Below are positions 16,794 to 47,304 of a stretch of 64,000 nt of DNA, piece by piece; position 1 is the stretch's first letter; the number at the start of each line of letters is the position of its first letter. Made by a program: the position numbers and the translations under genes. The notes beneath the pieces were generated by a model. The model did not search any database and had not been told where the DNA came from. It was given only the letters and a program-made list of their open reading frames with translations. The stretch is from NCBI GenBank assembly GCA_964017145.1, contig OZ024844.1, forward strand, positions 434,001 through 498,000. The letters are read 5' to 3'. This DNA is from Agrocybe praecox (lineage: Eukaryota; Basidiomycota; Agaricomycetes; Agaricales; Agrocybaceae).

Positions 16794-16800
16794 GTAGGGG

Positions 16801-18381: not shown

Positions 18382-18388
18382 GGTTGCT

Positions 18389-18765
18389 CACCCTTTGATG
18401 GTTATCTCATACATCAACCCTCGGTAACTACCCAATAAGGGTGATACATCCACCTGGGAAGTTTCCTAACACCGGCAGTGATATATGATGTCTTAGTAAG
18501 GCTGCCACGCAGCCGCCTTTGCCTACAGGCACTTGCCTTTGGTAAACACATGCAAATAACTCCACTTTTGTTCATTTTAGCCATTTTGAGGCTGAATATA
18601 GGCGCTGTGGGATCTGTGTTGGTGTTTTGGCAGCGCTACTTGGTCCAAATAGTTCTATATATATTTCTTTAATTTTTGGACACATTTGCGTGCCTAAAGG
18701 ATGACGTTGCGGGGTGGATTGGCGATATATGTTTTGGATGACGTTCCAAAAAAGGCAATGTATTC
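18389..18765. repeat. Left terminal inverted repeat of giant element (CACC end)
   Basis: Aligns without gaps to the reverse complement of 46921-47297. I count roughly 22 differences in 377, of which about 8 fall in the outer 20 bp. The sequence outside the two inner ends is unrelated. Confidence 0.9.
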
Positions 18766-18924
18766 TCACCTGCGTTTGGACAGAATATTTAATTTTGCCT
18801 GGGTATTTAAAAAACTCGTAAATTTAGGTTGGAAATCATAGCAGCATAGCATAAAATAGGCATATATTGACATCATAAAAAACATAGAAGAAGTACCTGC
18901 ATAATTCACTGGAAAAAGAATATA

Positions 18925-21269
18925 CTACAACGACTTGAGCACACGGTTGACATCCTGAATGTAAACAAGCCATTTCTTCTGCTCGTCGCTTTTCTTTTGC
19001 ACCGCGTCTCCCCAGTAAAATAAAGCAGCCATAACATTCAAGAGACCGTTCTTTCCTGGCATCCTCAGCTCAGAAAAATCGCCGTCTAAGTTAGCCAAGT
19101 CAATTTCGTTATTGCAGATACGCCAGCGAGGTTGTAGGCTAGTCCACCAAACAACGAAGTCTTTAGCAAATTGACAGGAGTTGATGGGCGGACGGTACTG
19201 AGAGCTTCGCTTGCGTTTAATCCATTGGCCCACGGTTGCTGGCCGGTACTTGGCCCTCAAAGATCCAGTCTCTGCAGTTTCCAGCCTTTTCTCCAGATCC
19301 ATCCAGTCGCCAACCAATTTCGACCATTCCCTACCTAAGTCGCGGCCTTGGAACATATTACATGCAAGCACAAACCATTGATCTTCAGCGTCAAACTTGT
19401 CCTTGTCTTTCGTGTTGACCGACTCATCAGGTGTAGGAGTTGACGTCAATGTTTGGTTTGTAGGCGATCCAGGTCGTAGACAAAGACGCTTGGGTGATTT
19501 GGAATAGGATGGAGAATTTGGCGAATCCGGGGTGGTCCTTTTACAACCGTGTCCGTTGCCTGTATTACTAGGAGTAGGTAGATCTGAATTATGATTTGCC
19601 GTGTCGTCCGTGTTCAGAGCTGGGTCCTGTGCTGTTGAGGAAGGTAGTGGCGTTGAAGGTGATGATGGAGAGTGGAGCAGCGTTACTACGGGTGAATTGC
19701 AAGGGGAGGGCGTTTCAGATAGGTCATGGCTGGGTTGAGTTGCAAGGCGTCCAGAGGCGTTCGGACTAGTAACTTGAGGATTGGGAACAATGCTGGCGGA
19801 GGTGGTAGAGTTCTCATCCTGTAAATCGGCTGCCGTCCTAGGTTGGATAAGCATTGATAGCGGGGCCGAAGAACTCGAAGTGACTCCATTGAGAGCTGCA
19901 GAGCTGGTGTGACTTGCTGGGGGGGGTGCTTCGACGATGCATAGGCTCAACAGAAGAGTGGGTGTAGATCGCAAAGAGCCTCCAGCCGAGTCCGATACAG
20001 GGTGTGAAATCGTGGTAATGTTGACGCTATTATTGAGCTCGAGAGACTGGAGCAAGCCCAGGGAATCATCTCCTTTGGATGACAGAGCACGCGACCAACA
20101 CTCCTCGATGGCTATACAGGGTTAGTAGATGCAGGGAATTGAAGAGAGAGAGACTTACAAAAACATTTCTGTAAAAAGGAACCAAAGATAGGGAGAATAA
20201 CGTCTTTGTACTGGTGCCATTCAACCTCTCCAAACGTTGCCTTGATATCACCTGAAGTTGACCCTGTGTGTAAGCTAGTAAATGTCAGTACGAAACCATC
20301 TCAAAAAGTTGAGAAATACGCACCTTAGAATGTTGAGTCTCCCGCCATGTGCTGGTTCAGGACCACTGCCCATCAAAGTAAAATTCCACCCTGTGCTGCA
20401 GGACACAGAGTCAAGAATAGGTTGCAAAATCCTGACAATGGACTGTATGGCTCTAAATAAAGATGAGAAAGGCACAACATTTTAGAGGTACAGTACATAC
20501 CGCTGACGGTCCTCCGGGGCCTCTGAAAAATCCCCTTCATTCTCATTCTTCCACTGCTCCAACTTGAGGATGTGTTCGGTCTTGACTTTGGCTTCCCATA
20601 TGGCCCGCTCTTCACTGGGGAGGGCATTGAACATTTGTTTGTGACCCTATCGCGCAAGGATACATATTGTCGTTTATCATATCTGTTGGTCTTCGCAATT
20701 GTTTTGACCTTCTCCTCGATTTCGTTACGGTGATCAACGTGCCAAGCGTTTACTGTGCTCTTGCATCGTGGGCGGCTGGAGTCCTTGCCTGCAAGCTTTC
20801 CGAGCAAGAGTTGGATCGGACTCCCTGCTGGATCCTTCAGGTCTTTCTCGTCGTCCTTCATGTATTGGTAACAGAACCACCGCTTGATTTGCTGGAATAA
20901 TTAATCAGTTCTGATCACATGACATTCCCAAAATAGGCATTTGGAAGGACTTACATCTTTCCGAAACTTGATCAATGCTCGACGACTTTCGAACACCTCC
21001 AAAGCTTGAGTGAATTCCTCTTCTGACATGGTCTCTGGATCTGGTGGAACCCTCTCATGATCAGGTGCATCATTGTCAACTGCTGCCAGAAACTCGGTCG
21101 TTGGTTCATCATTGTGTGGTAAGTCAATTGGATATCTTTTGAAATACCGCCGCAGAATTAACGAAAGCACCTCTGCAACACAGTTTTCTTCTACCCCTTT
21201 CGCATAGACAGGCTTCTGCGAAAAGAGAAACTCCTTCCTCGATCCACGAAAGGTTCCAGGATTGACCAT
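18925..21269 (-). pseudogene. Unknown agaricomycete family protein (copy 2), one-base frameshift
   Basis: Exons 21269-20955, 20891-20501, 20452-20324, 20274-20159 and 20111-18925, paralogous to 1157-3841 with the same intron phases. Blocks: VNPGTFRGSRKEF, RYFKRYPIDLPHNDEP, IKRWFCYQYMKDD, GPEPAHGGRLNI, GDIKATFGEVEWHQY, a Ser/Thr/Pro-rich linker, then VVWWTSLQPRWR and GKNGLLNVMAALFYWG. About 780 residues if repaired. No known catalytic motif, signal peptide or membrane segment. In exon 2 the frame slips near 20641-20645: upstream reads RDRVT, and the next block MFNALPSEERAIW is in the neighbouring frame. Exon 2 is 391 bp against 395 in copy 1, consistent with one missing codon plus one deleted base. 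It is the gene nearest the CACC end of the giant element and is divergent from the viroplasmin-like gene. The Gypsy insertion separates the two starts. Confidence 0.7.
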
Positions 21270-21536
21270 TTGGAAATCGCAGCGAAGATGCACAGGATGG
21301 GACTCGGAGCACTAGGAGGGGGGGTAGGTCATTGAAGGAGCAGAGGAATATAACGAATGGACTCCTGGCACCAAAATGGGGGCGTGAACGCAATGGAATG
21401 TAAGTTCACGTATACTGTACATGGTTTAGCTGACACTAACTATGCCGTTTGCAGAAAATCTCAAAACATAATAGATCTCCACATCACTGAAGTCGCCTAT
21501 CAAAGATCCCTGGTAGCATACACGATTTACGTACGT

Positions 21537-22760
21537 TGTCAACGTGAAAAAGGTTTTCACTTGGGTTTACCGGAACTGAGGTGTTCGGGATATTCCAATT
21601 GGTTCAACAGTAAAATTTACCGAGGTGCTGTAATGTGATGTAGTAAGATGATATGTGAGTAACTAAAAAGAAAGATATGAATGTGAGTAGAGTGCTGAGA
21701 CTATAATAGAAATGAAAAGAAAATAGATCAAAATCTGGATGATAAAACTTATTGTAGCTTTATCACTCTTGACCTTACGTGCCTTAACCTAGTGATACTC
21801 GAAGTATCTTTGTTATAATCAGAATCTGGATGATAAGGCTTATCGATGCTTATCACTTCTGAGTTATCGTTGATTGTTGACTATCAATCTTCTGTGCAAA
21901 TCAGAATCTGGATGACAAGAATGCTTATCACTTCTGAGATGCGGTAATCGTTAAACGTACTTCTTCTTGGCAGAAATTCAGAATCTGGATGACAAGAATG
22001 CTTGTCACTTCTGGGGTATAGTAGACGTCGTAGGTATCTCTTCTTGGCAGAAAGTAGCTCGTGGCAGAAAGTAACTCGTGGCAGAAGGTAACTCTTGGCA
22101 GAAGGTAACTCTTGGCAGACAGTAGCTCGTGGCAGAAAGTAACTCGTGGCAGAAGGTAACTCTTGGCAGAAGGTAACTCTTGGCAGACAGTAGCTCGTGG
22201 CAGAAAGTAACTCGTGGCAGAAGGTAACTCGTGGGAGAAATCAGAATCAGAATCTGGATGTTAAGACTTATCGATGCCTAACACTTCTGAATTACTTAGA
22301 GAATAATAGTACTTGAGAGTCTTATTGAAAGGAAGTTGTAAAGCAGTAAAGTTATGGGGAAAAGGTAGAATGATTATTCTTCTTTCTAATCTACTACATA
22401 TTTATACTGTTTTTCTATCCTACATCATAGTTCATGTTTCATGTTTAATAAGTGTAAATCATAATGCCTTAGTAATACATTAGTAATGCATTAGTAATGG
22501 TATCCATAAGTGTTACTGATACGTGTTTTATATGGCTGTGTTACATGTTTCATAATGTTCCCGCGATTTATTAACCACGTGTTTCATATTTGTCACGTGT
22601 TTCATGTTCATCATGTGTTTCATAATGTGTGTCTATTTATAAGTTTATGTTGCCTTGGAAGCGATAGGCTCTATCTGAATATTTGGGCTTGGTGTATTCT
22701 TCCTTCTCAACAATCTTCTGTGATCATGTTTTTGACAACAAACAGGATCTAATGCTGACA
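21537..22760 (-). repeat. 3' LTR of the Gypsy element
   Basis: 1224 bp, inverted ends TGTCA/TGACA. Contains tandem GGCAGAAAGTAACTCGT-type units and a series of hairpin-like repeats (AGAATCTGGATGA ... CTTATCACTTCTGA). Same length as 34822-36045. Confidence 0.93.
22040..22240. repeat. Tandem repeat inside the LTR
   Basis: About eleven copies of a 17-18 bp unit of the form GGCAGAAGGTAACTCTT, with AAAGTAGCTCGT and ACAGTAGCTCGT variants arranged in a higher-order pattern. The same array is present at about 35325-35525. Confidence 0.85.
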
Positions 22761-22906
22761 TCCGCGGGGAACAGATTTTAACCGTCCTCGGTTAATGCTT
22801 TCTTCAGAAGTTTGTTAGAGAAGGGACTTGGCCAGAACGATCAAGAAATGTTGTGTTTTTAAATTTAGAGAAATAAGAATAAAAAAATGTATACAACAAC
22901 TCCCTA

Positions 22907-23890
22907 TTATGCCTTCTGAGGATAGTCATAGATAAAGAAGCCTGAAGGACGGGTTACTAACAAGTCTGAAGGAGAGTGTTTGTACAGTACAACTTGTTTT
23001 ACTCTTTCCCACCAGGTAAGCTTTCGTCGCTGCTGTTGTAGCCAAACTTGTTGATGTAAACATTTCCGGATTTGTTGTTCAAAGCCTTCTAAGGGAAAGG
23101 TGAGAGGAAAGGAAATTAAGATTGGTGGCCATTTCCGGCTTGAGTCGGTGAAATAAGTATGGTGTCGATGGGTGTAGGCTACTGCCTCAATGACTACTAC
23201 TTCACGATCAACTAGTCGAACTCGCGTAAGGTGGTAAGAGACTGTAGCGGCCTGGGATATGCTTCCAAAAACGATGCGTGTACCAGGACGAAGCGTAAAC
23301 GAGCAGTCCACATGTTCCTCATTGAAGGTAATCCACCATGTGGCTCCGTAGAATTCTTCTGCAAAGCAGAATTGTTGCAACCTAGGAATGCAAAGTGCTC
23401 CCCCTCGCTGTCCGTCCAATTCTCTTTCAGTTAGCTGAGGCTCTCTCCAGCGGAATCCTTCGAAGAGCTTCTTCATGTCGTTGGGTCGCAAGTGAACTCG
23501 CTCTGGAAACTTGTCGGGAAGGCAGGAGGTGAACAAAACATTTTTGCTAAGAAAGGCTTTCTCTGGTATGATGGATGTTATGGAGTTTGGTTGAAGGAGG
23601 AGTGAATGGGAAGGTAATGAAAGGCGTGTAGGCAAAGGAGCGGATGGTGTGTATGTAGATTTTAATAATTTAGGTCCCCAAGTAAGAGTTTCGGTAACAT
23701 CCATCCCATCTTCTTCGTCATGAACTACCACTTTAGCAAGAGATGTTGTGGAGGAGTTCGTTGATTGCTCTTCATTAATAGGAAAAAGGACTTGGTCAAA
23801 ACTGGTGCGCCGGGTACGGGAAGCTGATGCTCGGGAAAGGACCTGCATCGGCATACTGCCCGCTCCTTGGTTAATTGTTAGAATAGTCAT
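22907..23890 (-). CDS. Extra ORF of the Gypsy element, 327 aa, function unknown
   Basis: Lies between pol and the 3' LTR, 100 bp after the pol stop, where env-like genes sit in some retroelements. ATG at 23890 starts MTILTINQGAG. The N-terminal third is Ser/Thr-rich. The middle has HLRPNDMKKLFEGFRW, then a block with ATWWITFNEEHVDCSF and RVRLVDREVVVIEA. The C-terminus is basic with WLQQQRRKLTWWERV. There is no signal peptide and no transmembrane segment, so it is not a typical envelope. It stays open with both LTRs identical, so it is probably a working part of the element. I recognise no family. Confidence 0.65.
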   Translation of the reverse strand: MTILTINQGAGSMPMQVLSRASASRTRRTSFDQVLFPINEEQSTNSSTTSLAKVVVHDEEDGMDVTETLTWGPKLLKSTYTPSAPLPTRLSLPSHSLLLQPNSITSIIPEKAFLSKNVLFTSCLPDKFPERVHLRPNDMKKLFEGFRWREPQLTERELDGQRGGALCIPRLQQFCFAEEFYGATWWITFNEEHVDCSFTLRPGTRIVFGSISQAATVSYHLTRVRLVDREVVVIEAVAYTHRHHTYFTDSSRKWPPILISFPLTFPLEGFEQQIRKCLHQQVWLQQQRRKLTWWERVKQVVLYKHSPSDLLVTRPSGFFIYDYPQKA

Positions 23891-23990
23891 GAGTGGTTGT
23901 GAATGGTTTTTGAGTGAGTGAGTAAACGATGAGTCCTTTTTGTTTTTGCTGGGGTTGATTATATACTCATTTTTCTCAGCCCAAATTTGT

Positions 23991-26900
23991 TTAGGTAACG
24001 TTGTCAGAGTCAGATCCGGATGAATTTGTATCGTCAGGGATGCTAGCGCGTGTAGCGTGGCTTGTCATAAATTCGTGATGTCGTGATATGTAAGGTAAAA
24101 TTCGTTTTGCTGCATATGTATTTTTCAGGGACGTTCCATCCAGCTCTTTTAATTTGTAGTTTCCTCCTATTGTTACTTGGTCCACTTCATAGGGTCCTAA
24201 ATATCTTGGCTTATGTTTTCTGTCATGAGACGTTTCTATAGCGGTGTTGCGTACTAAAACCAATGTTCCTGATTTATATTTAGATTGAATTAGCTTTTTG
24301 GCAAATCGTTTCTCAAATTGTTCCTTGGACTTAAACCGTGCAGATTTGAGAGTTTCTGCTGCTCTAGCTAAGTCTTCTGGGTGTTTAGAAATTTGACGTG
24401 AGCGTAATGCAAGTAATTCTGCGGTAGTAATGCCTGCTCGAAAATCTTCGACCAAAAAGGTGGCTTCCATTAGATCTAAGGGTAGAATTGGATCGGTAGC
24501 ATGAAGTAATTGAAAAGGGGAAAACCCTGTAACCCGATTCACGGTTACTCTATCTGCAAACGTTATCTCAGCCAATTTATCGGGCCATTTTGATAGGTCT
24601 CCTTGGCAAGCTTTGATTATTCCTTCACGTAATATAAAGTGTCCTCGCTCCACGACTCCGTTAGCATGATGGTTGTAGGGTGTTATTTTTATTTGAGGTA
24701 TACCCATGCGTTTTAATAGGGCCTCAAAGCCTTTCTTCACTTCCGGGCCGTTATCAGTAACTACTTGGATTGGGGCTCCATACCGGCAGTAAATCTTATT
24801 CCAGAAGAAATTAGATAATGATTGAGCGTTAGCTTTTCGTAAGGCCTCTGTTTCACTAGTTCCTGATAAATCGTCCTTGGCGGCTACTATATATTGGTAC
24901 CCTTTTGCTAGCGGCATGTGCATTATGTCGATATATATTTTTGCAAATAATTGTGTTGGTTTTGAGATGGTTAAAGGTACCTCTAAGCGCTTCAAGCTTC
25001 GTACTTGACACTCATGACAGGACTTTACGTGGTGATGTACGTCTGCTCGCATGTGCGGCCAGAAGAATTTATTTCGTAGTACTTCGTATACTGTCTGAAC
25101 GCCTCGGTGTCCTAGATTCTCATGTCCCTGTTTCAAAATTGAATATTTCTGTTCAGGGGTAAATATTACGGTTAGTGGTGTGCGGTGTCCATTTCGTTTG
25201 TATAATTTATTATTCTTAATGAAGAATTCAGTGGCTTTGGTAAGAAATCTCCGTTTCGCTTGTAGCTGGTCGAATTTAGGGGCCTCCAAGGTGGAAAGGA
25301 ATTTATAAATATTATTTAGTTGAGATCCCTCTTTGGTGCGAGCAGCAAATATCTGGACAACAGACTTTAAGATTATTTGAGGTGCTTTTCGATCGGGTAA
25401 AAGAGTCATTAGCGCAATATTATCTAGCCATGAATCGTCCTCCTCCTCTTCTGATGTGTCATCTTCTGCTATGGGTCGTCTGGATAATGCATCTGGCCCT
25501 TTGTGCTTATCGGCTGGTACATGTATCAGCTTGAAATCAAACATTAAAATTCCCTGTATCCACCGATTAATGGCTGCGGAGGGTTGCAGGTCAGGTTCGT
25601 TCAGCATTCCTTTAATATACTGAGCGTCTACTTCCACATGCAGAATTTTAACGCCTATTATGTATATTCTCCAATGTCGTAATGCGTGATATAGTCCAAA
25701 CAACTCCAATTTAGGTTGAGAGTATCGTGATTCTCGTTCACTCATGGGTAATGATCCGTACCGGGCAGGGCGCTTCCGTCCATTCTCATCTAATTGAGAT
25801 AAAATGAATCCTACTGCTTCTCGGCTTGAATCTACTGATAGAACTACTGGGAATTCTGTTGTGTAATCAATAGGAATTAGCGCTGGTGCTGATGTAATGA
25901 TTGTTTTGATTGTTTTGAAGGCGGTCTCCTGTCTATCTCCCCATATAAACTCTTTTCCTTTGTGGTATAGTTCCGTAAGAGGTCGTACCAATTGAGAATA
26001 ATTAGGGATCCATATACGTACAGTACCGCATAGTCCCAGGAATTGTCTAACTTCTTTGGGATTTTTCAGGGTTGGCCATTTTGTAATTTTTACGATTTTT
26101 CCTTCATCAGGGGTGCGTCCTTTGGAGCTGCAGGTTTGTCCAATAATTAGTACTTCTGGTAAACATATTTGAGTTTTATTTGCGGCAAATGTTGCCCCTG
26201 CAAATTTGATTCTATGCATCACTCTGTGTACGTCTTGTGCATGTTCCCATATGAATCGTCGAATTCCCGGGTTCTCGGTTAACACTTCTGGTTGACCATT
26301 TAAATCTAAGTATTGGCTCCTAGGTCCTTTGATGGGTAAATCATCAATAAAGATGTTAGCGACATTGGGGATTTCGTCTTTCAGAATTATTACCATGCAC
26401 TTTTGGAACTCAGCTGGCGAGTTAGTAAAGCCAGTGGGGAGGGATGTTATCTGAAGTAATCCTAGCGGAGTCATAAAGGCTGTCAGGTCTCGACTCTTAG
26501 GATGTATTTTCCTAGCGTCAAAGCCCCAAAAAAGATCAAATACTGTGTAGCATTGGTAACCCGCAAATCCTTCCACAAAGTCATCTACTATTGGTAACAT
26601 TCCTGCATCCCGTATTGTTATCTTGTTTAATGGTTGTAAGTCATGAACGATCCTAATTTTCCCATTTTTCTTGAGGACAATAAACCATCTTGATCGATAA
26701 GATGACTGACTTTGCTCATATACGCCTGCATCCATTTTTAGCTTGAGAACTTCGATTATTTTTGGCATTAATCCTGGCGGAAGAGGAATATTTCTGCACT
26801 CCCAGGGCGTATGGTCTACTGTGGGAATTATATAAGGAGAGAAGTATTCGTCTTTCAGTGTTCCTCGTTCAGAGTCTACAAAAGCGATACCTTCTTCATT

Positions 26901-28169
26901 TAGCACCATAATATGTTTGAATAATTTCTCTTCTTCGACCTGTAAGAATCCCGTTTCATTGATGTTTAGTTCCTTCATACGCTCTGAAGTTATTTTTAGA
27001 GTGGGCACAAATTCAGGTGGACAAACAGGTAATTTGGGTAATGTGAGCAAGGGGTCATCTGAAATTTCCCTAGTTACTCGTAATTCGGGTGGGAATGATG
27101 TTGATACTGGGTGTATTTTTCGATCGATTCGTTTGTAAGCAGTAAAGCTTAGTGGGTGACTTTCGCTTTTCTCGTCTGGTTCATATAAGTACTCATCATC
27201 ATCTTCTAAAAATGCTCCTTCGTGAGAGATAGATATTTCTGGCATTGGGTCTATTTCGGCAAAGGCAGGCCGAGTTCGCAAGAAGCATGTTTTATAAATA
27301 ACATTATTATTTTTAGAACTTGGGTCATCTGTTAGTGGTGTCGTTTTTCTGGTCATGATATTTTCTGTGTGCAGCGTAAGCACCTTGTTATTTTTCCAGT
27401 GTCGTACGAAAAAAGTTTCTTTATTTATCCTATGTTTCGCGGGGAACATGATAAATTTTATGTTGCTAGCTCGGACAGCGTGTGAGAACTGATGTTTTGC
27501 CTTTGCGAGCTTCATGGATCGTTGCCTTGAGTGTTGATTATTACTACTTTGCTTGTATACGGATGAGCGAAGAATATAGTCCTTCTTGAAGCTGTTATGC
27601 AAGGGAGTGACCGCGGGGAACATGATTGCGTTTTTCTTGAGGTTGGTTAAGTTGTCTGTGAATGATTCAGCTACAATAATTTCCGGGCCATTAGTTTTGA
27701 TAGGTTGGTTAAGGATCCTGTACATGTGTTTTGCGATTCTCGAATCAAAATCTGATTCTGGGAGGTACAAGACATTACAAGAAAATTTTGTATGTACAGT
27801 GTTAAATATAGGGATACCAGTACAGTTAGTTTTGAAGGCGGAAGCAATACATAAAGAAGTGTTGAGGAAGTTCAGATGGTTAGGTGGTCGATAGAGGTCG
27901 AAGTGTTGAAAAATGATGAAGCTGTGTGATGATTTTAATATATGTTTTTCGGTGGATAGATACCGACACATACCAGTAGTCTCGAGATCAAAAAAGAAGC
28001 ATAGCAGCATCCTGATTTGCAAAGTATTCTTCGTCGTTTTCATCTTCCAGGTCAACAATGTCAAGAGGGGGGGCGATGGCGTTGATGATACTTCCCATGA
28101 CCACTGCCAGATCAAGTGCGTGAGGATAAGGCATGACAGAGATACGCAAGAGATCCCCAGCGATCCCAA
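23991..28169 (-). CDS. pol: Gypsy pol: reverse transcriptase, RNase H, integrase
   Basis: 1392 codons. The RT core begins around residue 440 (YRSRWFIVLKKNGKIRIVHD), with the catalytic FIDDL near residue 608 in place of the common YxDD. RNase H has VVLSVDSSREAVGFILSQ. The integrase zinc finger is H-ENLGH ... CHEC near 1010-1050. The catalytic D, D and E lie in YIDIMH, VVTDNGPE and GVVERGHF (about 1080, 1138, 1173), and a GPY-like YLGPYEV follows. No chromodomain. The protease is not here but in the upstream ORF. The frame overlaps the gag ORF end by 182 bp in a different phase. The listed start may not be used: expression could be by frameshifting near 28000 or by re-initiation. No internal stops. 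Confidence 0.93.
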   Translation of the reverse strand: MGSLGISCVSLSCLILTHLIWQWSWEVSSTPSPPLLTLLTWKMKTTKNTLQIRMLLCFFFDLETTGMCRYLSTEKHILKSSHSFIIFQHFDLYRPPNHLNFLNTSLCIASAFKTNCTGIPIFNTVHTKFSCNVLYLPESDFDSRIAKHMYRILNQPIKTNGPEIIVAESFTDNLTNLKKNAIMFPAVTPLHNSFKKDYILRSSVYKQSSNNQHSRQRSMKLAKAKHQFSHAVRASNIKFIMFPAKHRINKETFFVRHWKNNKVLTLHTENIMTRKTTPLTDDPSSKNNNVIYKTCFLRTRPAFAEIDPMPEISISHEGAFLEDDDEYLYEPDEKSESHPLSFTAYKRIDRKIHPVSTSFPPELRVTREISDDPLLTLPKLPVCPPEFVPTLKITSERMKELNINETGFLQVEEEKLFKHIMVLNEEGIAFVDSERGTLKDEYFSPYIIPTVDHTPWECRNIPLPPGLMPKIIEVLKLKMDAGVYEQSQSSYRSRWFIVLKKNGKIRIVHDLQPLNKITIRDAGMLPIVDDFVEGFAGYQCYTVFDLFWGFDARKIHPKSRDLTAFMTPLGLLQITSLPTGFTNSPAEFQKCMVIILKDEIPNVANIFIDDLPIKGPRSQYLDLNGQPEVLTENPGIRRFIWEHAQDVHRVMHRIKFAGATFAANKTQICLPEVLIIGQTCSSKGRTPDEGKIVKITKWPTLKNPKEVRQFLGLCGTVRIWIPNYSQLVRPLTELYHKGKEFIWGDRQETAFKTIKTIITSAPALIPIDYTTEFPVVLSVDSSREAVGFILSQLDENGRKRPARYGSLPMSERESRYSQPKLELFGLYHALRHWRIYIIGVKILHVEVDAQYIKGMLNEPDLQPSAAINRWIQGILMFDFKLIHVPADKHKGPDALSRRPIAEDDTSEEEEDDSWLDNIALMTLLPDRKAPQIILKSVVQIFAARTKEGSQLNNIYKFLSTLEAPKFDQLQAKRRFLTKATEFFIKNNKLYKRNGHRTPLTVIFTPEQKYSILKQGHENLGHRGVQTVYEVLRNKFFWPHMRADVHHHVKSCHECQVRSLKRLEVPLTISKPTQLFAKIYIDIMHMPLAKGYQYIVAAKDDLSGTSETEALRKANAQSLSNFFWNKIYCRYGAPIQVVTDNGPEVKKGFEALLKRMGIPQIKITPYNHHANGVVERGHFILREGIIKACQGDLSKWPDKLAEITFADRVTVNRVTGFSPFQLLHATDPILPLDLMEATFLVEDFRAGITTAELLALRSRQISKHPEDLARAAETLKSARFKSKEQFEKRFAKKLIQSKYKSGTLVLVRNTAIETSHDRKHKPRYLGPYEVDQVTIGGNYKLKELDGTSLKNTYAAKRILPYISRHHEFMTSHATRASIPDDTNSSGSDSDNVT

Positions 28170-34764: not shown

Positions 34765-34821
34765 ATACTATTCACAAAGCACAAAGTAAAATTTTACCAC
34801 CCTCGCGGTGGGCTCCAATTA

Positions 34822-36045: not shown

Positions 36046-36184
36046 ACGTCAACTACCATTACTTGCATAAATACCTTGCTAAAATTCTAACACACAGCAG
36101 GAAATTCTACGCCTCTTTCCCGCTTTTTGCTACCTCAACTTACTCAACTGCTCTTCCCTTGCCTCGTCCTACCCCACACTTACC

Positions 36185-38426
36185 ATGTCTGAAAATAACA
36201 ACAACAAAAGTAAGCTCACCATTCTATTCTCCTCACTTACACAACTGACGAAGTATTATAGAAAATAAATCTCAATCGAATGCCGACCCTAGGAATGGTA
36301 AGCTGCCATTTTTTTCTTTCAGATATATACATTGTTTATGTTCTTTAGGTACTAATGGGCAAGAAGCTCCACCCATCATGAATTATTCCGATATGATGGA
36401 ACCGAACCCGACCGACCTGCGCACTCCGGAGCCTGGAGCAACCTACTATTGGGTTTTCACTGTCGTTGGCATTATTCATAACCCACGGTATGTTTTTCTT
36501 TTTTCTTTTTTCGGTTTTTCTTTCTTCTTACGATTGCCAATGCCACCTTATGTAGACAACTTGCGCGCATCTGTCTCGTCAGTCACGCCGCTATCTCAAT
36601 GTGCCGCTTTGATAATTGGCGTAGTGCCAAACTTTACTACTCCTGCAACTACCATTTGGGGCACGTTCGCCTTACTCCTGCTGTCCCTGGCATGAGGAGG
36701 GATCCTATCTCTGTTCCCGAGACCCCTGCTTGCCCAGCCCCTCCTCCCGATGAATTATTGCCTGCCAACTCATCTGTTCAGCAACAAGTCGTTCAGCCCA
36801 CTTCTTCGGTTCGTCAGCATTCTAACCGCTCTGTCCCTCTTGGCCCTCTTTCGAACAAACAATCAACGCCCAAATCATTTGGTCTACAAGCAAATGACAA
36901 AACCAAGCTCCCTATTCCTCCTGATTCAGCCCCCATGGTTGTCTCCTCTACAATTCCTTCTGCTTCAACCGCTGCGAGACGTAAGGCTCGCGTTATTGTC
37001 ACCAATGGCTCGGACATCGATTCCGACATCCCAGACGACACCTACATTATTTGCCTAGGAGGTACAGGGCCTAAACAGTGGTCAAGGACTCCAAAAACCC
37101 CCAACAATTCAGTGGATCGCACCATTTCCGTCACCTCAGCAAAGAAGCGGGACTGTTACTCAATTATCTCACCACAAGCTCGAACCGGCACTCTGGCGAA
37201 AAGCTTAACAGGCTGTGGATCTAAGTACAGCGCCAGCCAGACGACCCTTGCAAGTCCAAAACTTGCCAAAGTGCCCACCCCTGCCAGCAGCAAATTCGCC
37301 ACCATGCCGAATTTGCTGGGTGTCACTCCCAAGAGCGCTTCTTCGACTGTCCGAGTCCCCAACTTAATGCCCGCTTCGGCTCCCCCTAGTTCAACATCTG
37401 AAACGATGTCCACGGATGCTGCTGTGCGAAAATATCGCAGCAGAGTCCTTGAGGCTCTTGATAAACTCAGCACCCTTGACCTTTCCATTTCGAAGAACCT
37501 CACTTCCAAGACTAAAGTTATCCGCGATCGTAAGGGTGCTTCGTCTTCTCTCCCGAACAACTCAGGTAAGTGTTTCTTCTATTTTTTGCACTACGTTACA
37601 TTTGGCTAATGACATACTGGCAGCATCGCCAATCGACGTATTTTCCTCAAACTCTACTCAGGCTCAGCCCTCGCCAATTGGTCCAGCGTCTGCATCCCCC
37701 TTTGTTCCGACACTCACCCCCGGTTTCCGCATCAAATCCGTCTATTCCCCCCTCTACGAAGACGATCCGTATACTTGAAGCGAAGAAGAGATCGACCCCA
37801 TAGAATTCGAGGAGCAACCTACCTTGAAATCGAAGAAGAGACGCGCTCATGACTGCGTCGACGTTGAAGATGAGCCTGCGGGGCAAGTAAAACGCAGAGC
37901 AACGAGCACGAGTCCGGAAGATAAGGATTCACGCCACAAAGGAAAGCAGAAACTCCCCGCACGTCCTGTCGAGCACGACAAAATTGATCCACCGATGCAG
38001 ATCCCACCCCCGACCATGCTACCTCCTAGGACACCCATACCCTTCAACCCCATTTCCTCGCACGCTGCAATGTCCTATGCATTGAGTCACCCAGACTCTA
38101 CCCTCGCTCCCGACTATACCTTTGCGTCCTATATCACGACCGCACCCTTTGCACCCCCAACGTACACATACTCGTCCAACGAAGGGTCTGTATCCCTCAC
38201 TGTCGGGTCTTCATCCACGGTTTTGGCTGCCACTCCCTCTACAGACGTAGGTGCTGGATCTTCCACTGCGACCATTAGCGGACCTCAAGCTGCTCCAGAG
38301 ATCCCAGTAGTAGAAGTCATGGATAGTGATGAAGAGATGGACAAAGCACTCGCTGAGCTCGAACGTTTGGATAGGGAGTTGTTGGCTGGTTTTGTCACCT
38401 TAGGAGACAATGATATGCAGCTATGA
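36185..38426 (+). pseudogene. Viroplasmin-like (RNase H1 N-terminal-like) protein, in-frame TGA
   Basis: Exons 36185-36209, 36262-36297, 36349-36487, 36556-37565 and 37624-38426, all phases consistent. The N-terminus is Asn/Ser-rich. The domain is split by a phase-2 intron: GATYYWVFTVVGIIHNPR, then SMCRFDNWRSAKLYYSCNYH and GHVRLTP, a divergent YYVV..G..VGI / W..A..YY...Y..G.VR pattern. A long Ser/Thr/Pro-rich tail follows, then KSKKRRAHD and an acidic end VVEVMDSDEEMDKALAELE. TGA at 37776-37778 (DDPYT*SEEEIDPIEF) stops translation after 454 codons; the remaining 216 stay open in the same frame, so the lesion is recent. No intron that would skip it keeps the frame. It is the partner of the divergent gene 18925-21269, as the left-edge pair is. 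Confidence 0.65.
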
Positions 38427-38735: not shown

Positions 38736-38739
38736 ACTA

Positions 38740-39081: not shown

Positions 39082-39678
39082 GTTTTGACTTTGTAGCATA
39101 TGTAGACAAATTTTGTATTAGTTCGTTGAGAAGTATGAAGGAATGTATTTAACGTGCGGGCTTCGGACATGCAGCTAGTTCCTAAGTTCCTAAAATAGAT
39201 CGCGTCCAATTTACGACCAAGTAAAGATAAAGGGGTTGCCAAAGTCATATTACTGGTATTTTGTCGCCGTAAGAAAGCCATTGAAGCTCTAAACAGATAT
39301 ATATCCTCCATATGTAGCAGTATTTTACCAGAAATTTTATGCCCATGAATGTCGAATAAATGTTTGGGTTGGAAGATTGATTAGCAGCAAGTGAGGAAGT
39401 GCGACTAACAGCAAAATTCATTCATCGATTTTTAAACATTACTCTCGACATCTCATGGCCTCAAAAATATATGGGATGCAAGACTAATAGGTAGGACCGA
39501 CCTCAAGAAGAATCCCCGTTGGTATTTACTTACAACAGGCAAACATATTAACATTTTGAATGTTGTATTATGTACGAAATCACCTCGCTACTAATTTGAT
39601 CATGCTCGATACAAAGGGCAAAAAAAAAACAACTATATTTGACAGGGTACACAGCGATCTAATTACTCTATAATTACA
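39082..39678. other. No gene recognised
   Basis: AT-rich, with no conserved ORF and no repeat shared with the rest of the window. It is the 3' flank of the TET/JBP gene. Confidence 0.5.
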
Positions 39679-41243
39679 TCACTCGCATCTATTGTGAAGG
39701 ATAGGTAACAGATTCAGTCCGTGAGCCCAACGTTCTGTATTGCGTGCGTCCTGTTGGTCTCGTTCCTCAGATGATAGCCCAGCGTAGTATTCCCGAGCCT
39801 TCTTAAAACCGTATTCAACCCAGCAAAAAAGACTGCCGGCGCTGTATTGAGTAAAGGAATAGCAGCGCTCATGGGGTTGGATGGTCGTATTGGAGTGCGA
39901 AATAACAGCTGAGGGAAGAAGAATGGTGGAGCCGGGGGGAAATTCAATAACAAGATGGCACTCCCAGAGTATGAGATGCCCGCCTTTGGTGTGATCAAAG
40001 CTGCCGAACGAGGTGATGGCGCACCAACCATAGGGAAGGTTGCCGAAGTCTTTGTGTTTGAAGCAAACAGTCTGGGGGCCAAAATTGTAGCTGTATGCGG
40101 AGAACAAGGCGCCGTCAAATACACGTTCCAAATCAGGGGAGTTGGCGTGCAATTTGCCCAGCTTCTCTGCGTAGTGTTGATGTAGGAGTGGGGCCCAGGT
40201 TGCAATGGCAGCTAGAAGAGAATTAATAACAAAGAACTTGCATGGGTGCACAAATTACGCACCTGTGACAAATCCCGCCAATCTTCTAAAAACCCGCATC
40301 TCATTCAACTCCTTCAAGACCTCCTCGTTGGATCCAGTGTGGCATAGGTTAGAAGGCTGCCCCTGTCCACCTCTATGGGATACCCCGCAACTCAAAGCCA
40401 CAAAATTCCCGTGGCGGGGTATCTTCGTGTTCACCTTGGGTTTTGGAACACGACAGCGGTGACGCTTCTGTTCCAATGCATTGGCAGCCTCTTTCTGCAT
40501 TTGGATCCAAGTTGGATCGTCGGGCCGTCCTGCAAGCAGTGCTACCATACGGCGCGTTTTGTCAACGACAGGCATTGCTTTTCTAGTAGAGAAATGTTAG
40601 ATAGACGTTCATTATAGGGGGATGTAAATAATTACACGCCGTCCCATTTCTGGACAGTGAAATGCAATGTCTCAATGACGTGCTGTAGCGTAGGCGTCTG
40701 GGTTGACCTCAATCCATCGTCTTTGACGCCCCCCAGGTCCAATTCGCAAGGTACTGGTTCAGCTGGGTGAATGTAATGTTCTATCGTCTCCTCTCTGACT
40801 TTATAGTAGGCATAGGGTGCATTTTTTTTCTCCTCAGTTCTTCTCTTCTTCCTATTAGCCTTGCTATGCTCCCTATTGCGTTGGCGCTTTCCACTTTTGC
40901 CTGGGTTTTTGGAAAGCAGACTAGCAGGTTCGTTGTAACTGGGGTGAGGGCATGTTCCTGAGGTGGCGGATGATTCCCCAAAGGAGATGTACGAGCTGGT
41001 GAGTGAGGGGGGTTCCATTCTAATTAATATGGGGTCTGAAGAAGGCGATATTTTAGTCAATGGAGGCGGCGGTGAAAGCCCAAGTTCAGGTGGGTCATTG
41101 TCGTCTGCACTGGATGAGGCTGAGGAAAGAGGGGAAAGACTGAAGAGGTCGGGTTGGATTTTGTTGCGATCCTGGAGGGACGCGGTGTCAGCAAGAAGGC
41201 AAAGAAAGCTGAAGTCGGGGTTGGCGGCCATGATGATGGCCAT
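39679..41243 (-). CDS. TET/JBP-type 2-oxoglutarate/Fe(II) dioxygenase
   Basis: Exons 41243-40636, 40582-40263 and 40211-39679; the introns (53 and 51 bp) join in frame, giving 486 residues with no lesion. Residues 1-200 are disordered with a basic stretch (GKSGKRQRNREHSKANRKKR), possibly a nuclear signal. The catalytic part follows: VALLAGRPDDPTW, HGNFVALSCGVSHRGGQ, SYNFGPQTVCFKHKDFGN with the iron-binding H-x-D (about H362, D364), GWCAITSFGSFDHTKGGH, EFPPGSTILLPSAVISHSN with the distal His near 415, and ERCYSFTQY with the 2-oxoglutarate Arg near 425. This is the lineage-expanded fungal TET/JBP family, whose characterised members oxidise 5-methylcytosine in DNA. It starts 288 bp from, and is divergent to, the KDZ transposase, the pairing reported for these families. 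It is the only cargo gene of the element without a visible lesion. Confidence 0.9.
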
Positions 41244-41531
41244 AGCGAAGCAGGATGTGGGTCGTTCAGGTGTCCAAGGGGGTATCCCGTGTCTGATAGC
41301 AGCTATGAGAGGTTACCGGGCTCGATCACCATGCTCAAAAACTGCGTTGGACGCGTGATACTTGGAGGGAAAGGATGCACAGAGGGAGGAGGAATGAAAA
41401 GCAGAATATTTTTAGTATTTCCACAAAGAATTCAGAATCATGTGACCTACCAAAGCACTCTGTGACGTATTGCGTGTTAATTTAGAACCTTGGCCTTGCC
41501 ATCTGTTTTCTCCAACTTATTTAATAACCCT
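41244..41531. promoter_or_regulatory. Shared divergent promoter region of TET/JBP and KDZ genes
   Basis: 288 bp between the two start codons, no ORF in common. No clear TATA box; a TTATTTAATAA sequence lies just upstream of the KDZ ATG. Joint regulation is inferred from the layout. Confidence 0.45.
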
Positions 41532-42236
41532 ATGTCTAATACAAGACCGAAGAAAAAACGACAACCCAATAGCGTTTATTGAGACCCCACCCCCGTTTTT
41601 GACGAATACACCATCATCCATGCAAGCAAAGGTCGCTTAAGAAGAGTTGGAAACAAAAATACCTTCCTCACTGCTCCAAAAATACGAGTGCAACAAATAG
41701 CTTCGGGTCAATGGGAGTCGACTGCTTCATGGGTGCCTCAAGATGATGAGCAGTATGCATTGGATCCATCGGGTGAACTGTATGAAGAAGCCTTGGAGCA
41801 GGACGTAATGGCGCTGCTACCTGCAGTGGCTGAAAAGGAGAAAAAGCCCAGGAAACGAAGTCAGGTGGAGGTAAGGTTTATAGAAGTTATTGAACTAAAA
41901 TATGATGCTTACTTGTAAACTTCTGAATTTCTCCTTGACAGAAAAGACCCCATGTTACCTGGACGAACCAATATCATCAGACTTATCTAGATGAACTTGT
42001 CTGATGGGATGGCCGAGGCGATTTCACTTTGGGCAAGTCCTGTCCCGATTGCCTTGCCCGCAAAGTGGAGGTTCCAGGGCCTTGTGAATACCGCTGTGAC
42101 TCATGTATAATTCCTGATCTTACTTGTGCCTCGTGCTGCATAAGGCGACACCGAAATTCTCCCTTCCATATCATCAAGGTACGCAGTGCATTTATTGCTT
42201 CAACTAAATCTTTTGTCAGGGCAACACTAAGATCAG

Positions 42237-42265
42237 TGTGACAAGGCCACCAACAAAGACAAAGC

Positions 42266-42301
<36 letters not shown>

Positions 42302-42682
42302 TGAAGAGAGAGAGAGACACTCAATGGTTCTAAGAGATCACACCAATGATAGTGGATATCCTAAGAGATTGAAGCTGGGGCTACAGCTACATACATGTCC
42401 AGTATATATACCCTACAGCTATTCTAGAATATTCCTCCATGACATCATAGAAAGGAATGATGAGTAAGGCAATGACATCATAAAGAAAGTAAAAGAATGA
42501 TGTAGAATGATGTAGAATGGATGAGGCTATGCTCATGGGTAATTAAAGTGATAAGTATCTAATCAAATGATAATCAAGAGATAATCAAAGATATGAAACA
42601 GATAAGATATCTACACATCTACAAAAAGGAAAAATGCGAAATAAATATAGAAAAATAAGGAAAAATAGGGGAAACCCTGACA
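42237..42682. repeat. LTR-like insertion with GA microsatellite in a KDZ intron
   Basis: 446 bp from TGTGACAAGG to CCCTGACA, with a GA run at about 42266-42320. It enlarges the intron between exons 2 and 3 to 523 bp against 50-70 bp for the others. Reverse complemented it starts TGTCAGGG, a common LTR-style start. No clear target duplication, so the boundaries are provisional. Confidence 0.45.
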
Positions 42683-43949
42683 TCTTTCTAACATGGCGTA
42701 GAGATGGACAGAAAACCGCTTCGTCAACGCTACGCTGGAGTAGCTTGGGCTCAAAATACAGCTAAATCACTCCAGCATGTATTGCGACAACCCAATTCTG
42801 TGCCATTCCCGCCTCCTTGTCCTCCACACCAACAGCATTCACAAAATAAATGTTCAATATTGTGGATGTACCCGCTCTATTCCCTCATATCTGCAACTCC
42901 TTCGACATCGATTTTTTCCCGCAACACAACTCAATATGAAAATGTGCGCCACATTCGAGCTTTTAGACCAACTTCACAAATATTCTCTTACCACCAAATC
43001 ATTGACCTACGACTTCTATCGCGGCCTGGAAATAATGACTGATAACACAGGTCTGAATAGACCAAGATCTCGATACCGTGCCCTGCTCCGTATGTCGATG
43101 CAGTGGCGCCACCTCAAAATGTTGAAGCGAGCTGGACGTGCTTACGACCCATCTGGTGCCAGCGGGACGCAAGAGGGTGAGCTTGCCGTTTTATGCCCCT
43201 CTTGTCCGCGACCTGGGGTGAACTTACCTATTGGGTGGGAGAACGCTCCCAATAATTCAAAGTGAGTTCCTTCTGATTTCTGTACAGAAAAGTACTCTAC
43301 AACGCTCTCATTTCAGGTACCTCTACATGGCTATCCTCTGCATGGACGCGAATTTTAGGCTGAAGAATCAACTTGTATCAAACTATTCACAAGACCCAGG
43401 TTTCGGAATCAGGTGGGCATATATGGTTCCTAGGTTACCATACGAAACCTACGTTTTGAGTCGAGCAGATGATGAAGATGTATGTGATAACCCCTCTCTT
43501 CTTCTCGTGTGTATTTAATTCTGACCTTCCAATTCCTGGTAGATCAGTACGTGCGTCGGCTTCCAGGCGTTAGCCAAAGCAAACACCAAGTTCTCCCGGG
43601 GCCTTCGGTACACAGGAGTGAATATGACCGTCTGCGGACGATCAGAAATGATCATGCCTGTTGGAGTGGGGAATCTTCATAAAGGAAAAAGGTACGTAAC
43701 TTTTACGTTTGAATTCCTCTATTACTTATTGAAACCTCCTCCAGATACACGAACATGGACTACGTATTCGGCTCTGCATTGCAAAACGTCCTCGTTCCTC
43801 TGGTGCTTATTAGCTATGACATCGCATGCCAGTGGTTTATCAATCTGTTCAAGAGGATTGATTCTCATTGGCCCAATCACATTAAACCTACGGCCCAGAT
43901 GAACATTAAGCCAGCAATTCCCAAGCTCCACGAACCAATGCACCACGCC

Positions 43950-44747
43950 CAGCCAGTGCTGTCAAATTTATGTATGAGTGATGCATAGTTGCCCCACATA
44001 AAGTATGCATCCACAGGGGTAACTGCCCAACTGCCCAAAGTGATGCATCAAGCCTTCTGGCTGGCCTATTGTGACCATTTGTGACTATAGTCATGTGTCT
44101 GTTATTGATGGCATCAAAATCCTTGCACATGACTTTTTGCTTGCCTCTATTTACATGTTTGGGCTCTGTTCACATGTTTATATGGCCTCAAATACAAACA
44201 AATAGTAAATAATAATGTTAGCAGGCAGGGGCAGGCCTGCTACAAAACAATCAAAGCCTTTAAGTGATATTACATTCAAACAACCCAATAAGGCAAGAGG
44301 ACTTTGGACTTTGAGATTTTGCGATAGAGTCCTCTTGATGCATGATAGACGGGACTAACACATGACCAAATAAGATCAAATCTATTTTTAGAACCGATCT
44401 ATTTTTAGTTTGTGTCTATCTTTAGAACAATTCACGAATTTGCCAAATATAATAAAGTTATTTTTAGAACAGATCTATTTTTAGAACTCATTACATATTT
44501 ACATAGTTTATGAAAATCTATTTTAAAACATTTCAATAAAAATAACTTTGGTGGCTGTGCACTAAATCACATGACTATACTGTGGCTATGCATCAAATCA
44601 CATGACTTTCACATGATTACACCCCTCTAGTCACTGTTGGTCACCCTGATGCATCACTTTGGGCAGTTGGGCAGTTGCCCCTGTGGATGCATACTTTATG
44701 TGGGGCAACTTAGGTTGGGTCATGCATACATCTACCAGTAACAGGTG
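43950..44747. mobile_element. Non-autonomous element E4 inside the KDZ transposase exon
   Basis: 798 bp, starting CAGCCAGTGCTGTCA; the right end reverse complemented is CACCTGTTACTGG. Left target CCACGCC at 43943-43949; the right copy reads CCACG at 44748-44752 and then enters the gap. Long inverted repeats include GTTGCCCCACATAAAG and CCCAACTGCCC. Interior motifs as in E1. Confidence 0.9.
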
Positions 44748-44752
44748 CCACG

Positions 44753-44952
44753 NNNNNNNNNNNNNNNNNNNNNNNNNNNNNNNNNNNNNNNNNNNNNNNN
44801 NNNNNNNNNNNNNNNNNNNNNNNNNNNNNNNNNNNNNNNNNNNNNNNNNNNNNNNNNNNNNNNNNNNNNNNNNNNNNNNNNNNNNNNNNNNNNNNNNNNN
44901 NNNNNNNNNNNNNNNNNNNNNNNNNNNNNNNNNNNNNNNNNNNNNNNNNNNN
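44753..44952. other. Assembly gap, 200 N
   Basis: Exactly 200 undetermined bases, a typical placeholder, so the true length is unknown. It hides the second part of the E4 target copy, the left part of E5 and possibly KDZ coding sequence. Confidence 0.98.
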
Positions 44953-45257
44953 GTCCTGAGTTGTTTGTTGTTTAGGTGTGTTGGTGGCTGATCATGACTT
45001 ATTTATTATTTGTTTGTATTTGAGGCCATAAAATTGTGGCAATGGACCCTGAATGTGTAAATAGAGGCAAGCAAAAAATCATGCTTTTGTATTTTGATGC
45101 AATCAGTAACACCCAGTCACAACACATGACCACTTCAACATATAGACAGTGAAATAGATAAGTCTGGCAACTGCCAGCCTGGAAAGTACCATTCTGGATC
45201 TATCATAGTGTTGGGCAGATACCATGCATCCATGTATCAAAAGGACTGCTACAGGTG
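44953..45257. mobile_element. Non-autonomous element E5, right part only
   Basis: Shares with E2 and E3 the blocks ATTATTTGTTTGTATTTGAGG, GTAAATAGAGGCAAGC, GTACCATTCTGGAT and TGTTGGGCAGATACCA. The right end reverse complemented is CACCTGTAGCAGTCC at 45257. KDZ coding sequence resumes at once with CPKTKPNPY. CCCAAAA (45258-45264) is the predicted target copy; the other is in the gap. Confidence 0.85.
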
Positions 45258-46920
45258 CCCAAAAACCAAGCCCAATCCGTACCATACCGAAGGCGAATGT
45301 AAGTTATTATTTCCTTGGCTGAACGACCACTTGCTAACATATTTTACAGGTATATCTGAAGCATTGGTTCGAAGAGAATTTGCCGAAGAAGATAAATGCC
45401 AGCTGGATGCTGGCTTTGTTTCTTTACACCAGACGACTGCATCTGGCTTCATCATTTTAGCATTGGACCTTGAACATGCCCAGTAAGTTTCCACAAATAT
45501 TTAATTTTGAGTCAACCCGTAGCTAATGTACAATTGAACATATAGACGACGAGTGCAACGCATATCCAAGGACCCCCAAGCCAATTCGACTGCCCGTAAA
45601 GAGGGTTCTGTAACCGAGCAGAGAAACATGTTACGCTCTCGCATTCGTGCATGGGAGCTGCTACTTCCTCTCTACATGCCAGGATGGTTGCAGTTTCAAG
45701 CAAATTGCGAACGCTTACCCAACATGGCCAAGTTGTTCGCTCCAAAATCTGGTAATCCGGAGGACTACGTGCTTCCCCTTCCATCAACAATTCCTGAACC
45801 ACATCGCACACGAATCTGCGTCCCTGGTCTGGCCACAATAGAGAGGGAAATGTGCATAGCACAGTGCGCCGATGCTCTCGATTCTTTAAGGCAAATCCTC
45901 AAAGTCAAACAACGATTAATCAGCTTCAAAAACAAGAATATTTGTGGGCAAAGGGAGGGTACTCGATCCTGTGCACTAATAGATTATTCCGTTCATCTGC
46001 GTGCACGGACGTATGCTGAGAAGTATCGAGTTGCACGCAGTGCAAAACTAGCATTGGATGGACCTGGGGATTGGGAGAAAACATACCGAGTATTAGAAGA
46101 TCAAGATGTACGCGGATATCAAGACCCTGATCACCTACGCCCCAAGGTTGGCCGCCCAGGTATATGAGAAGATGGCCAAATAGTCGACACCTCTGTGCAT
46201 GAAGAACCGGAGCTCGTCCTCTTCAACGAAACCCGCGATCGTCGTGATGGAACTGGCGAAACTCAACGAACACTGTCTTGGATATGGTTGACTCCTGGTG
46301 CCACGTCGACTGAGGATGAAGGCGACAATATCCTGATATCCGAATGGGCCAAAAATCGAGCAAGATCGTTACGTGCGAGTGAGGAGGTTTTACTATTAAA
46401 AGAAGAGATGCGCCGAGTGTTGGAATTCTTGAATTGGAAAGCAAAGTGTTGGAAAACGCAACTCAACAAAAGAGACAATGTATCAGCAGAGCTCGTGGAA
46501 GGACTTCAGGCATATGCACTTACTCAGACCAAACTCCAGAACAACCTTTCGGATAAATTCAAGTCGCAATGGCAGAAACCGTTGGAGATCTTACCCGACA
46601 GTCTTCCCGAGTCCTCAATGCACCAATCGCAGGCTGCCGATCAAGAACATTCCGAAGATACAAGAGAAATACATGCTGCGGCCAACGACTTAACCGACGA
46701 TGAATCTGGAGATGAATCTGAAAACGAATATTTTGACGAATATGATTCTGAAGATTTTGGGGATTGATATTTTTGAGCCATCACGTAGCTTAAATTTAGA
46801 TATGTTTTCTTATGTCAATGAATATGATATTTACTAAAGATAGGAGGCCGAGACCTCAGGTCCGACTATGCCGGTTAACCGAATTCCGGTGAACCAGAAA
46901 TAACACCACATCTAATTTTG

Positions 46921-47297
46921 GAATACATTGCCTTTTTTGGAACGTCATCCAAAACATATATCGCCAATCCACCCCGCAACGTCATCCTTTAGGCGCGCAA
47001 AGGTGTCCAAAAATTAAAGAAATATATATAGAACTATTTGGACCAAGTAGCGCCGCCAAAACGCCAACACAGATCCCACAGCACCTATATTCAGCCTCAA
47101 AATGGCTAAAATGAACAAAAGTGGAGTTATTTGCATGTGTTTACCAAAGGCAAGTGCCTGTAGGCAAACGCGGCTGCATGGCAGCCTTTCTGACACATCA
47201 TATATCACTGCCAGTGTTAGGAAACTTCCCAGGTGGATGTATCACCCTTGTTGGGTAGTTACCAAGGGTTGATATATGAATATACCAGACAAGGCTG
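46921..47297. repeat. Right terminal inverted repeat of giant element (CAGCC end)
   Basis: Reverse complement aligns to 18389-18765 without gaps over 377 bp. It starts 153 bp after the KDZ stop and is followed by GGTTGCT. Confidence 0.9.
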
Positions 47298-47304
47298 GGT
47301 TGCT

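Follow-up and report, generated by a model that had tools for sequence, protein, structure and literature searches.

A probable dead copy of a multi-copy KDZ-class transposon carrying a TET/JBP-like dioxygenase in Agrocybe praecox

Does a long segment of the Agrocybe praecox genome that carries both a KDZ transposase and a TET/JBP-like dioxygenase move as one transposon, and what would the dioxygenase do for such an element? The question was raised by a window of 64,000 nucleotides (the whole stretch of DNA analysed, C5:434001-498000 of assembly GCA_964017145.1), in which an earlier note, made from the sequence alone, had described a single 28.9-kb KDZ transposon at 18389-47297 with five gene remnants. 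We searched the whole genome (59.2 Mb in 347 contigs; in all loci named below, C with a number is a contig of this genome). The results make it probable that the interval is a dead copy of a KDZ-class transposon that moves by cut and paste, is present in many copies, is built as a four-gene unit of 13-14 kb and works in the manner proposed below.

The outer limits of the element were confirmed by a repeat scan, by comparison of the flanks and by empty sites. Its left arm (18389-18765, plus strand) and right arm (46921-47297, minus strand) are inverted repeats of 377 bp each, 94% complementary, and directly outside them lies a perfect 7-bp target-site duplication, GGTTGCT (18382-18388 and 47298-47304). 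At their outermost ~18 bp the arms showed no inverted-repeat match, and end alignment revealed two distinct termini: an L terminus at 18389-18406 (plus strand, CACCCTTTGATGGTTATC), which starts CACCCTTTGATGG, and an unlike R terminus at 47280-47297 (minus-strand reading, CAGCCTTGTCTGGTATAT), which read inward starts CAGCCTTGTCTGG. The termini of the element are 5'-CA..TG-3', as in Kyakuja. When the genome was searched with the joined flanks we found two empty sites, C10:2010427-2010702 (97%) and C7:3233508-3233783 (96%), both of which align as flank, single GGTTGCT, flank, with no insert. An insert-free site with one GGTTGCT had been set beforehand as a test, and the two sites found are paralogous copies rather than alleles; because they carry one GGTTGCT without the insert, both breakpoints are fixed. 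A search with 18389-18765, proposed earlier as a way to find further copies, matched 30 places in the genome including its own two, and elements on C11 and C4/C1 were bracketed by the repeat at both ends. These matches, the empty sites and the duplication statistics given below ruled out that the repeats or the duplication arose by chance.

Three intervals have the same ends as the window copy and are collinear with it inside, with blocks 82-96% identical: C11:915537-937184, C4:16509-45977 and C1:4990818-5020184, the last being a subtelomeric duplicate of the second. The C4/C1 intervals contain a nested second unit of the same lineage, 12.9 kb long and with its own perfect 7-bp duplication. 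This subtelomeric duplication is recent, with the C4-start and C1-end insertions in inverse order and the pair C4:50035-74041/C1:4963580-4986760 shared as well. A further unit of 13.8 kb, C5:2461914-2475729, has inner repeats of 481 bp that agree with each other at 99.8% and with the window repeats only across 98 bp at 74%; the L and R motifs recur at its outer termini, and its duplication is perfect. Since these repeats diverge while the motifs are shared, it is by its outer termini, and not by the long repeats, that the lineage is defined.

The termini were then followed across the genome. Exact matches numbered 55 for the L pattern and 40 for R, and neither search gave a match to a reversed pattern; there were 89 L and 62 R matches in all, of which pairing used 60 L and 62 R and the partner count the 55 exact L and 62 R. 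Among 64 inward-pointing plus-strand ends, 35 had an L/R partner, 6 an R/R and 1 an L/L partner, and 22 had none within 45 kb. Pairing of L with R within 45 kb gave 39 pairs, 25 of them longer than 8 kb. Matches to KDZ, TET and gene A (an HMG-box-like gene described below) were enclosed by 20 of these 25, duplicates and alternative pairings counted and the content scored with a hand-picked subset of matches near the ends; the window copy is outside the 20, its KDZ being undetected. Compact L/R units measure 12,916, 13,626, 13,643, 13,712, 13,816 and 14,077 bp (range 12.9-14.1 kb), where a 12,923-bp unit is a duplicate of the 12,916-bp one and only the 13,816-bp and nested units were retrieved in full. 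The duplication test covered 37 of the 39 L/R pairs, leaving out the alternative pairings C1:4990818-5020578 and C4:16115-45977, together with two R/R pairs (C10:881796-885626 and one on C339). In these 39 the flanks agreed at 7/7 in 27 pairs (two being C1 duplicates of C4 insertions), at 8/8 in three short elements and at 6/7 in two, and seven had no duplication; mismatched pairings, used as a control, reached 7/7 in 0.1%. The 8-bp duplications, with the same L/R ends, belong to the short elements C208:26322-29545, C6:3395343-3398823 and C8:1729217-1732783.

The single 28.9-kb unit claimed earlier did not stand, as three inserts were found inside it, and comparison with other copies ruled out that the 28.9 kb moves as one block. 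The largest insert, at 21537-36045 (minus strand), is a nested Gypsy-type long terminal repeat (LTR) retrotransposon, recognised by its LTRs, domains and duplication, that is not part of the DNA transposon. Its LTRs (21537-22760 and 34822-36045) are direct repeats of 1,224 bp, 100% identical, with 80 matches in the genome. Its minus-strand open reading frames (ORFs) encode reverse transcriptase, RNase H, integrase and aspartic protease domains, and its duplication, ACGT, lies at 21533-21536 and 36046-36049, where the C11 copy has uninterrupted sequence. Between 22907 and 34767 the nested element has a 2,259-amino-acid gag/protease frame and a 385-amino-acid ORF without a Pfam match. Its 14.5 kb, long for a fungal LTR retrotransposon, are missing from the other copies of the DNA transposon, and about half of the 28.9 kb is thus a retrotransposon that arrived later. 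The second insert, 469 bp at 42214-42682 (no strand), has TG..CA ends and a TCTTT duplication and is missing from C11. The third, at 43943-45254 (no strand), was identified by repeat scan and copy comparison as a foldback-type repeat in the KDZ gene and includes a 200-N assembly gap (44753-44952). A KDZ core of ~340 bp present in C11 and C4 is not present there; it is either inside the gap or deleted, and the assembly is compatible with both. Related foldback-type repeats occur at 14773-17705, 4325-5139 and 43949-45254, and the ends at 14773 and 43949 start with CAGCCA, similar to the R terminus, but the borders 14773/17705 showed no duplication. Simple subtraction of the inserts leaves ~13 kb, consistent with the compact L/R units. 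The window copy is dead, with a stop in the TET frame and the KDZ core missing at the insert with the assembly gap.

We found that four genes stand in a fixed order: KDZ, a divergent TET-like dioxygenase, gene M (viroplasmin/RNase H1-N-type) and gene A. Gene A and the dioxygenase share a strand, gene M is on the opposite one and KDZ is divergent from the dioxygenase. In the genome, 91 TET matches merged into 62 loci, and 150 gene A matches were scored, of which 98, entered after omission of mostly short second-exon matches, gave 95 loci. The search for KDZ (PF18758) gave 176 matches; KDZ locus counts use the matches listed and are therefore lower bounds, and the spacing analysis took TET as listed. 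KDZ lay divergent within 6 kb of at least 39 of the 62 TET loci and in the other orientation at 1 among the KDZ matches listed, gene A was on the same strand within 8 kb of 41 and convergent at 2, and the whole order KDZ, TET, gene A was found within 12 kb at no fewer than 33 (again among the KDZ matches listed). Gene M was flanked by TET and gene A and ran on the strand opposite to them in the window copy, C11, C4, C2:3719401-3729300 and C5:2461914, and gene A was found between the same ends elsewhere in the genome. The central proposal, a KDZ transposon with a TET/JBP-type dioxygenase between exact ends, was thus borne out by the copies, the L/R pairs and the fold match described below, and recurrence of gene families between the same ends was seen for KDZ, TET and gene A in the 20 pairs above and for gene M in several relatives.

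The KDZ gene of the window copy is a remnant at 42744-46767 (plus strand), delimited by comparison with C11 and C4. PF18758 scored 123.5 bits in the C11 copy (cut-off 26.6) and was also found in the C4 and C1 copies; in the window copy, which lacks core sequence, no KDZ domain appeared among the matches listed. The five gene remnants reported earlier are here counted as four, as the "small basic protein" at 41583-41915 (plus strand) is most simply the probable first exon of the KDZ gene, its counterparts in C11 and C5:2461914 being equally placed and oriented. The proteins nearest to the element genes are from Agaricales, for example Flammula, Galerina, Gymnopilus and Pholiota. Relatives of TET and gene A lie on contigs of equal size, and on that ground assumed to be the same contig, in Flammula alnicola (807,652), Galerina marginata (267,026), Pholiota conissans (30,090), Pholiota molesta (1,074,669) and Gymnopilus dilepis (13,032; CVT26_006141, CVT26_006140). 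In A. praecox itself, C4:728000-746500 and C6:2976000-2995000 share a block ~99% identical, and the C4 stretch has the same gene set, with its gene M assigned by position and resemblance. No inverted repeats were found in a scan of the C4 stretch, and neither an L nor an R motif was seen at the borders of the shared block; a 2-mismatch L-pattern match at C4:729245 may be the end of these relatives.

The orientation of the gene block relative to the termini differed between copies. The L end stood beside gene A in nine insertions with duplication (the window copy, the nested C4 unit, C5:2461914, C2:11364, C3:4088920, C6:1146019, C7:2890395, C8:2552317 and one on C24 that has no TET match) and beside KDZ in five (C11:915537, with 6/7, C4:16509, C11:1477866, C12:2366197 and C6:2944080). 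Because the window copy, C11:915537 and C4:16509 belong to the same family and differ in orientation, the gene block has been flipped within one family. Recombination between the inner repeats would be the simplest cause. The competing explanation that fares best is an exchange of the terminal 18 bp, by gene conversion between the arms, in place of an inversion of the interior; the inner repeats are long and similar (as in C5:2461914), so either event could occur, and nothing decisive stands against the exchange, both events yielding an identical final structure. We regard the exchange as possible, though with less than even prospects, and keep inversion of the interior as the working explanation.

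The genes of the element appear to be maintained by selection. Between the C11 and C4 copies the ratio of nonsynonymous to synonymous substitution rates (dN/dS) was 0.18 for TET (its N-terminal piece being outside the comparison with C4), 0.10-0.32 for pieces of gene A, 0.24-0.31 for gene M and 0.16-0.28 for KDZ, and all four genes are under purifying selection between these two copies. Against the window copy the ratios were 0.15-0.60; of the eight pieces with both comparisons, seven had a higher ratio here and one an unchanged ratio, as expected because the window copy is dead. The recurrence of gene A between the same ends, the place of gene M in the relatives and this selection support the earlier suggestion that the cargo moves with the element.

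The dioxygenase gene lies at 39682-41312 (minus strand) and was recognised by genome matches, a structure model and an alignment of relatives. It had been described as intact-looking; its frame is broken by a stop at 40255-40257, and a second stop at 40597-40599, just upstream, could fall outside the coding part. The piece 39682-40254 contains HxD at residues 67/69 and His120. The structure model of this dioxygenase piece (mean predicted local distance difference test score, pLDDT, 85) matched CcTET and NgTET1 first, with GGCX, cupins and PHD2 close behind, and structure comparison gives a 2-oxoglutarate/Fe(II) fold nearest to TET/JBP. The iron-binding HxD...H residues were invariant in 45 of 45 relatives; the Arg expected for 2-oxoglutarate was found in 21 of 45 at the column chosen, for which the choice of column or the alignment is perhaps responsible. 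A Pfam scan of the scanned pieces of the window revealed no TET, HMG or viroplasmin domain, and these assignments were therefore made via fold comparison and relatives. The dioxygenase sequence had no match in PDB, profile searches returned unrelated matches only, and none of the 11 genome matches to PF12851 lies within these elements.

At the positions of CcTET Gly331 and Asp337, all 45 relatives have Asn and Cys; the profile alignment that places the Cys is weak (probability 20%) and is gapless between HxD and the next Gly. AG-type TETs keep Asp337 according to Kojima 2025 (PMC12730594), and PE-type TETs have HxE in place of HxD, where all 45 relatives have Asp. By the residue rule of that paper, the TET of the element would be neither AG nor PE type. 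A canonical TET near a different KDZ gene (C12:2715500-2723500) has Ser where CcTET has Gly331 and Asp where it has Asp337, and matches CcTET at E 5e-24; two TET types thus lie near KDZ genes in one genome.

We then asked whether the copies bear a trace of methylation. In three of four aligned blocks (the fourth has no outgroup), with C4 as outgroup and with gapped columns and sites where the outgroup differs from the other copy dropped, transitions at CpG sites numbered 68/512 in the window lineage and 37/455 in C11, and transitions at other C/G sites 37/2235 and 52/2273, an excess at CpG of 8-fold and 3.5-fold, respectively. Because an excess of CpG transitions is the usual mark of 5-methylcytosine (5mC) deamination, the elements have probably been methylation targets in the past. 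The element may manage its own methylation state, as the earlier note proposed; the counts do point to past methylation of the copies, but its dioxygenase departs from CcTET at a residue described as essential for 5mC activity in PMC12730594. Rather unlikely in our judgement, and second among the alternatives, is a transposon as described whose dioxygenase is not a 5mC demethylase and makes another modified base, in the manner of JBP or CMD1, or acts on N6-methyladenine (6mA), for example marking element DNA. The Cys and Asn in all 45 relatives speak for it, as does the failure of profiles of the element's TET clade to match CcTET at E<=10, whereas the canonical, AG-like TET of the same genome does so readily; on the other side, the best structural matches of the dioxygenase are 5mC/6mA oxidases, and the HxD..H ligands are kept throughout.

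Gene A, interrupted in the window copy, spans 18928-21311 (minus strand; pieces 20904-21311, 20376-20900 and 18928-20121) and was assigned by genome search and fold comparison. The family has 57 relatives in the protein collection. Fold comparison with VIA supported a three-helix HMG-box fold, where Foldseek returned nothing at E<=0.001; the protein has a C-terminal part besides the HMG box. Iyer et al. (PNAS, 2014) reportedly linked TET/JBP to KDZ transposases, and their abstract is said to name extra proteins including a divergent HMG domain, to which gene A probably corresponds. Gene M, at 36249-38423 (plus strand) with a probable 68-bp intron at 36488-36555, was recognised through its relatives, and its domain through the C2 relative only: with the predicted intron removed, PF01693 scored 30 bits in that relative (cut-off 21) and had no match in gene M of the window copy, C11 or C5:2461914. 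A search of the protein collection with gene M gave 76 candidates, none significant.

Taken together, these data suggest how the element would work. The transposase would recognise one L and one R terminus, excise the unit and reinsert it with a 7-bp staggered cut. The host would CpG-methylate the copies, leaving the footprint seen above, and the dioxygenase of the element may oxidise methylated bases on element DNA, so that the divergent promoter or the ends stay usable. The HMG-type protein may, by bending DNA, recruit either the transposase or the dioxygenase to the ends. The gene block would be inverted against the termini, both states of which were found, when the long inner repeats recombine. 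The retrotransposon and smaller inserts subsequently disrupted the window copy. Several results weigh against this model: no duplication flanks C2:2328241-2355349, C4:50035-74041 or its duplicate C1:4963580-4986760, nor the alternative pairings C6:1150819 and C2:1110305 or both C10 pairings.

The 7-bp duplication and the CA..TG ends make the element Kyakuja-like. PMC12730594, published in December 2025, describes complete TET+ Kyakuja from Agaricomycetes whose duplications are 7 bp long and whose termini are 5'-CA..TG-3', proposes an escape from methylation-based silencing, and states in its Introduction that it was unknown whether TET/KDZ genes sit in complete transposons. The element here resembles those in its KDZ transposase with a TET/JBP gene, its host class, its duplications and its ends. 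It differs from the Laccaria TET+ Kyakuja families, which are without terminal inverted repeats, in having inverted repeats of 360-480 bp ~18 bp inside the ends, and from the AG type in the Cys of its TET. Zisupton and Dileera also encode KDZ-class transposases (Pfam PF18758), and their duplications are 8 bp in the same source, against 7 bp in 27 of our 39 pairs and 8 bp in our three short elements. CcTET (PDB 7W5P, 8JKK, 7VPN) shares the fold and the HxD..H iron-binding set with the dioxygenase and differs from it in overall sequence (14-18% identity) and at Gly331 and Asp337. The words HMG and viroplasmin have no occurrence in the PMC12730594 text at hand, and the literature covered (titles, abstracts and term counts, few subscription papers) held no gene M in KDZ elements, no long inner repeats and no Cys-type TET. 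The core idea is therefore not new, as that paper already reports TET+ Kyakuja with 7-bp duplications; new are the presence of two more conserved genes between ends that were confirmed here, long repeats in subterminal position, both orientations of the gene block, a CpG-decay footprint and a Cys-type TET. Because the unit borders, duplications and empty sites are defined exactly and the same copies carry a methylation-decay footprint, the silencing-escape idea can be tested directly with defined elements; genes A and M are named as candidates for a role, and the Cys suggests that the product of these enzymes may differ from that of CcTET.

A more far-reaching account, which we hold to be doubtful, would make these elements a separate lineage that needs its four-gene cassette to move, namely a transposase, an HxD/Cys TET-like oxidase of a fourth, so far unclassified type, an HMG-type protein and a protein of the RNA-DNA-hybrid-binding type, with the HMG-guided oxidase resetting the modification of the ends and inner-repeat recombination flipping the block. 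Least probable is that genes A, M and TET came from the host, were captured once between the ends and are carried as passengers without a role in transposition, for although TET is absent from the 6 kb around 97 of 137 KDZ loci (among the KDZ matches listed) and short L/R elements without KDZ, TET or gene A matches also carry duplications, the gene order is fixed in divergent families, all four genes are under purifying selection, and gene A and TET relatives lie on equal-sized contigs in the five other species.

Outside the dead copy, the left edge of the window (49-2141) holds part of a second KDZ-type unit, with a gene M relative at 49-420 (minus strand) and gene A at 1521-2141 (plus strand), followed after gene A by tandem repeats of 24/36/72/108 bp at 2493-3082. 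On the other side, a Copia-type LTR retrotransposon occupies 55245-60582, with 362-bp LTRs that are 99.7% identical and with its gag, integrase and reverse transcriptase domains divided between two adjacent ORFs.

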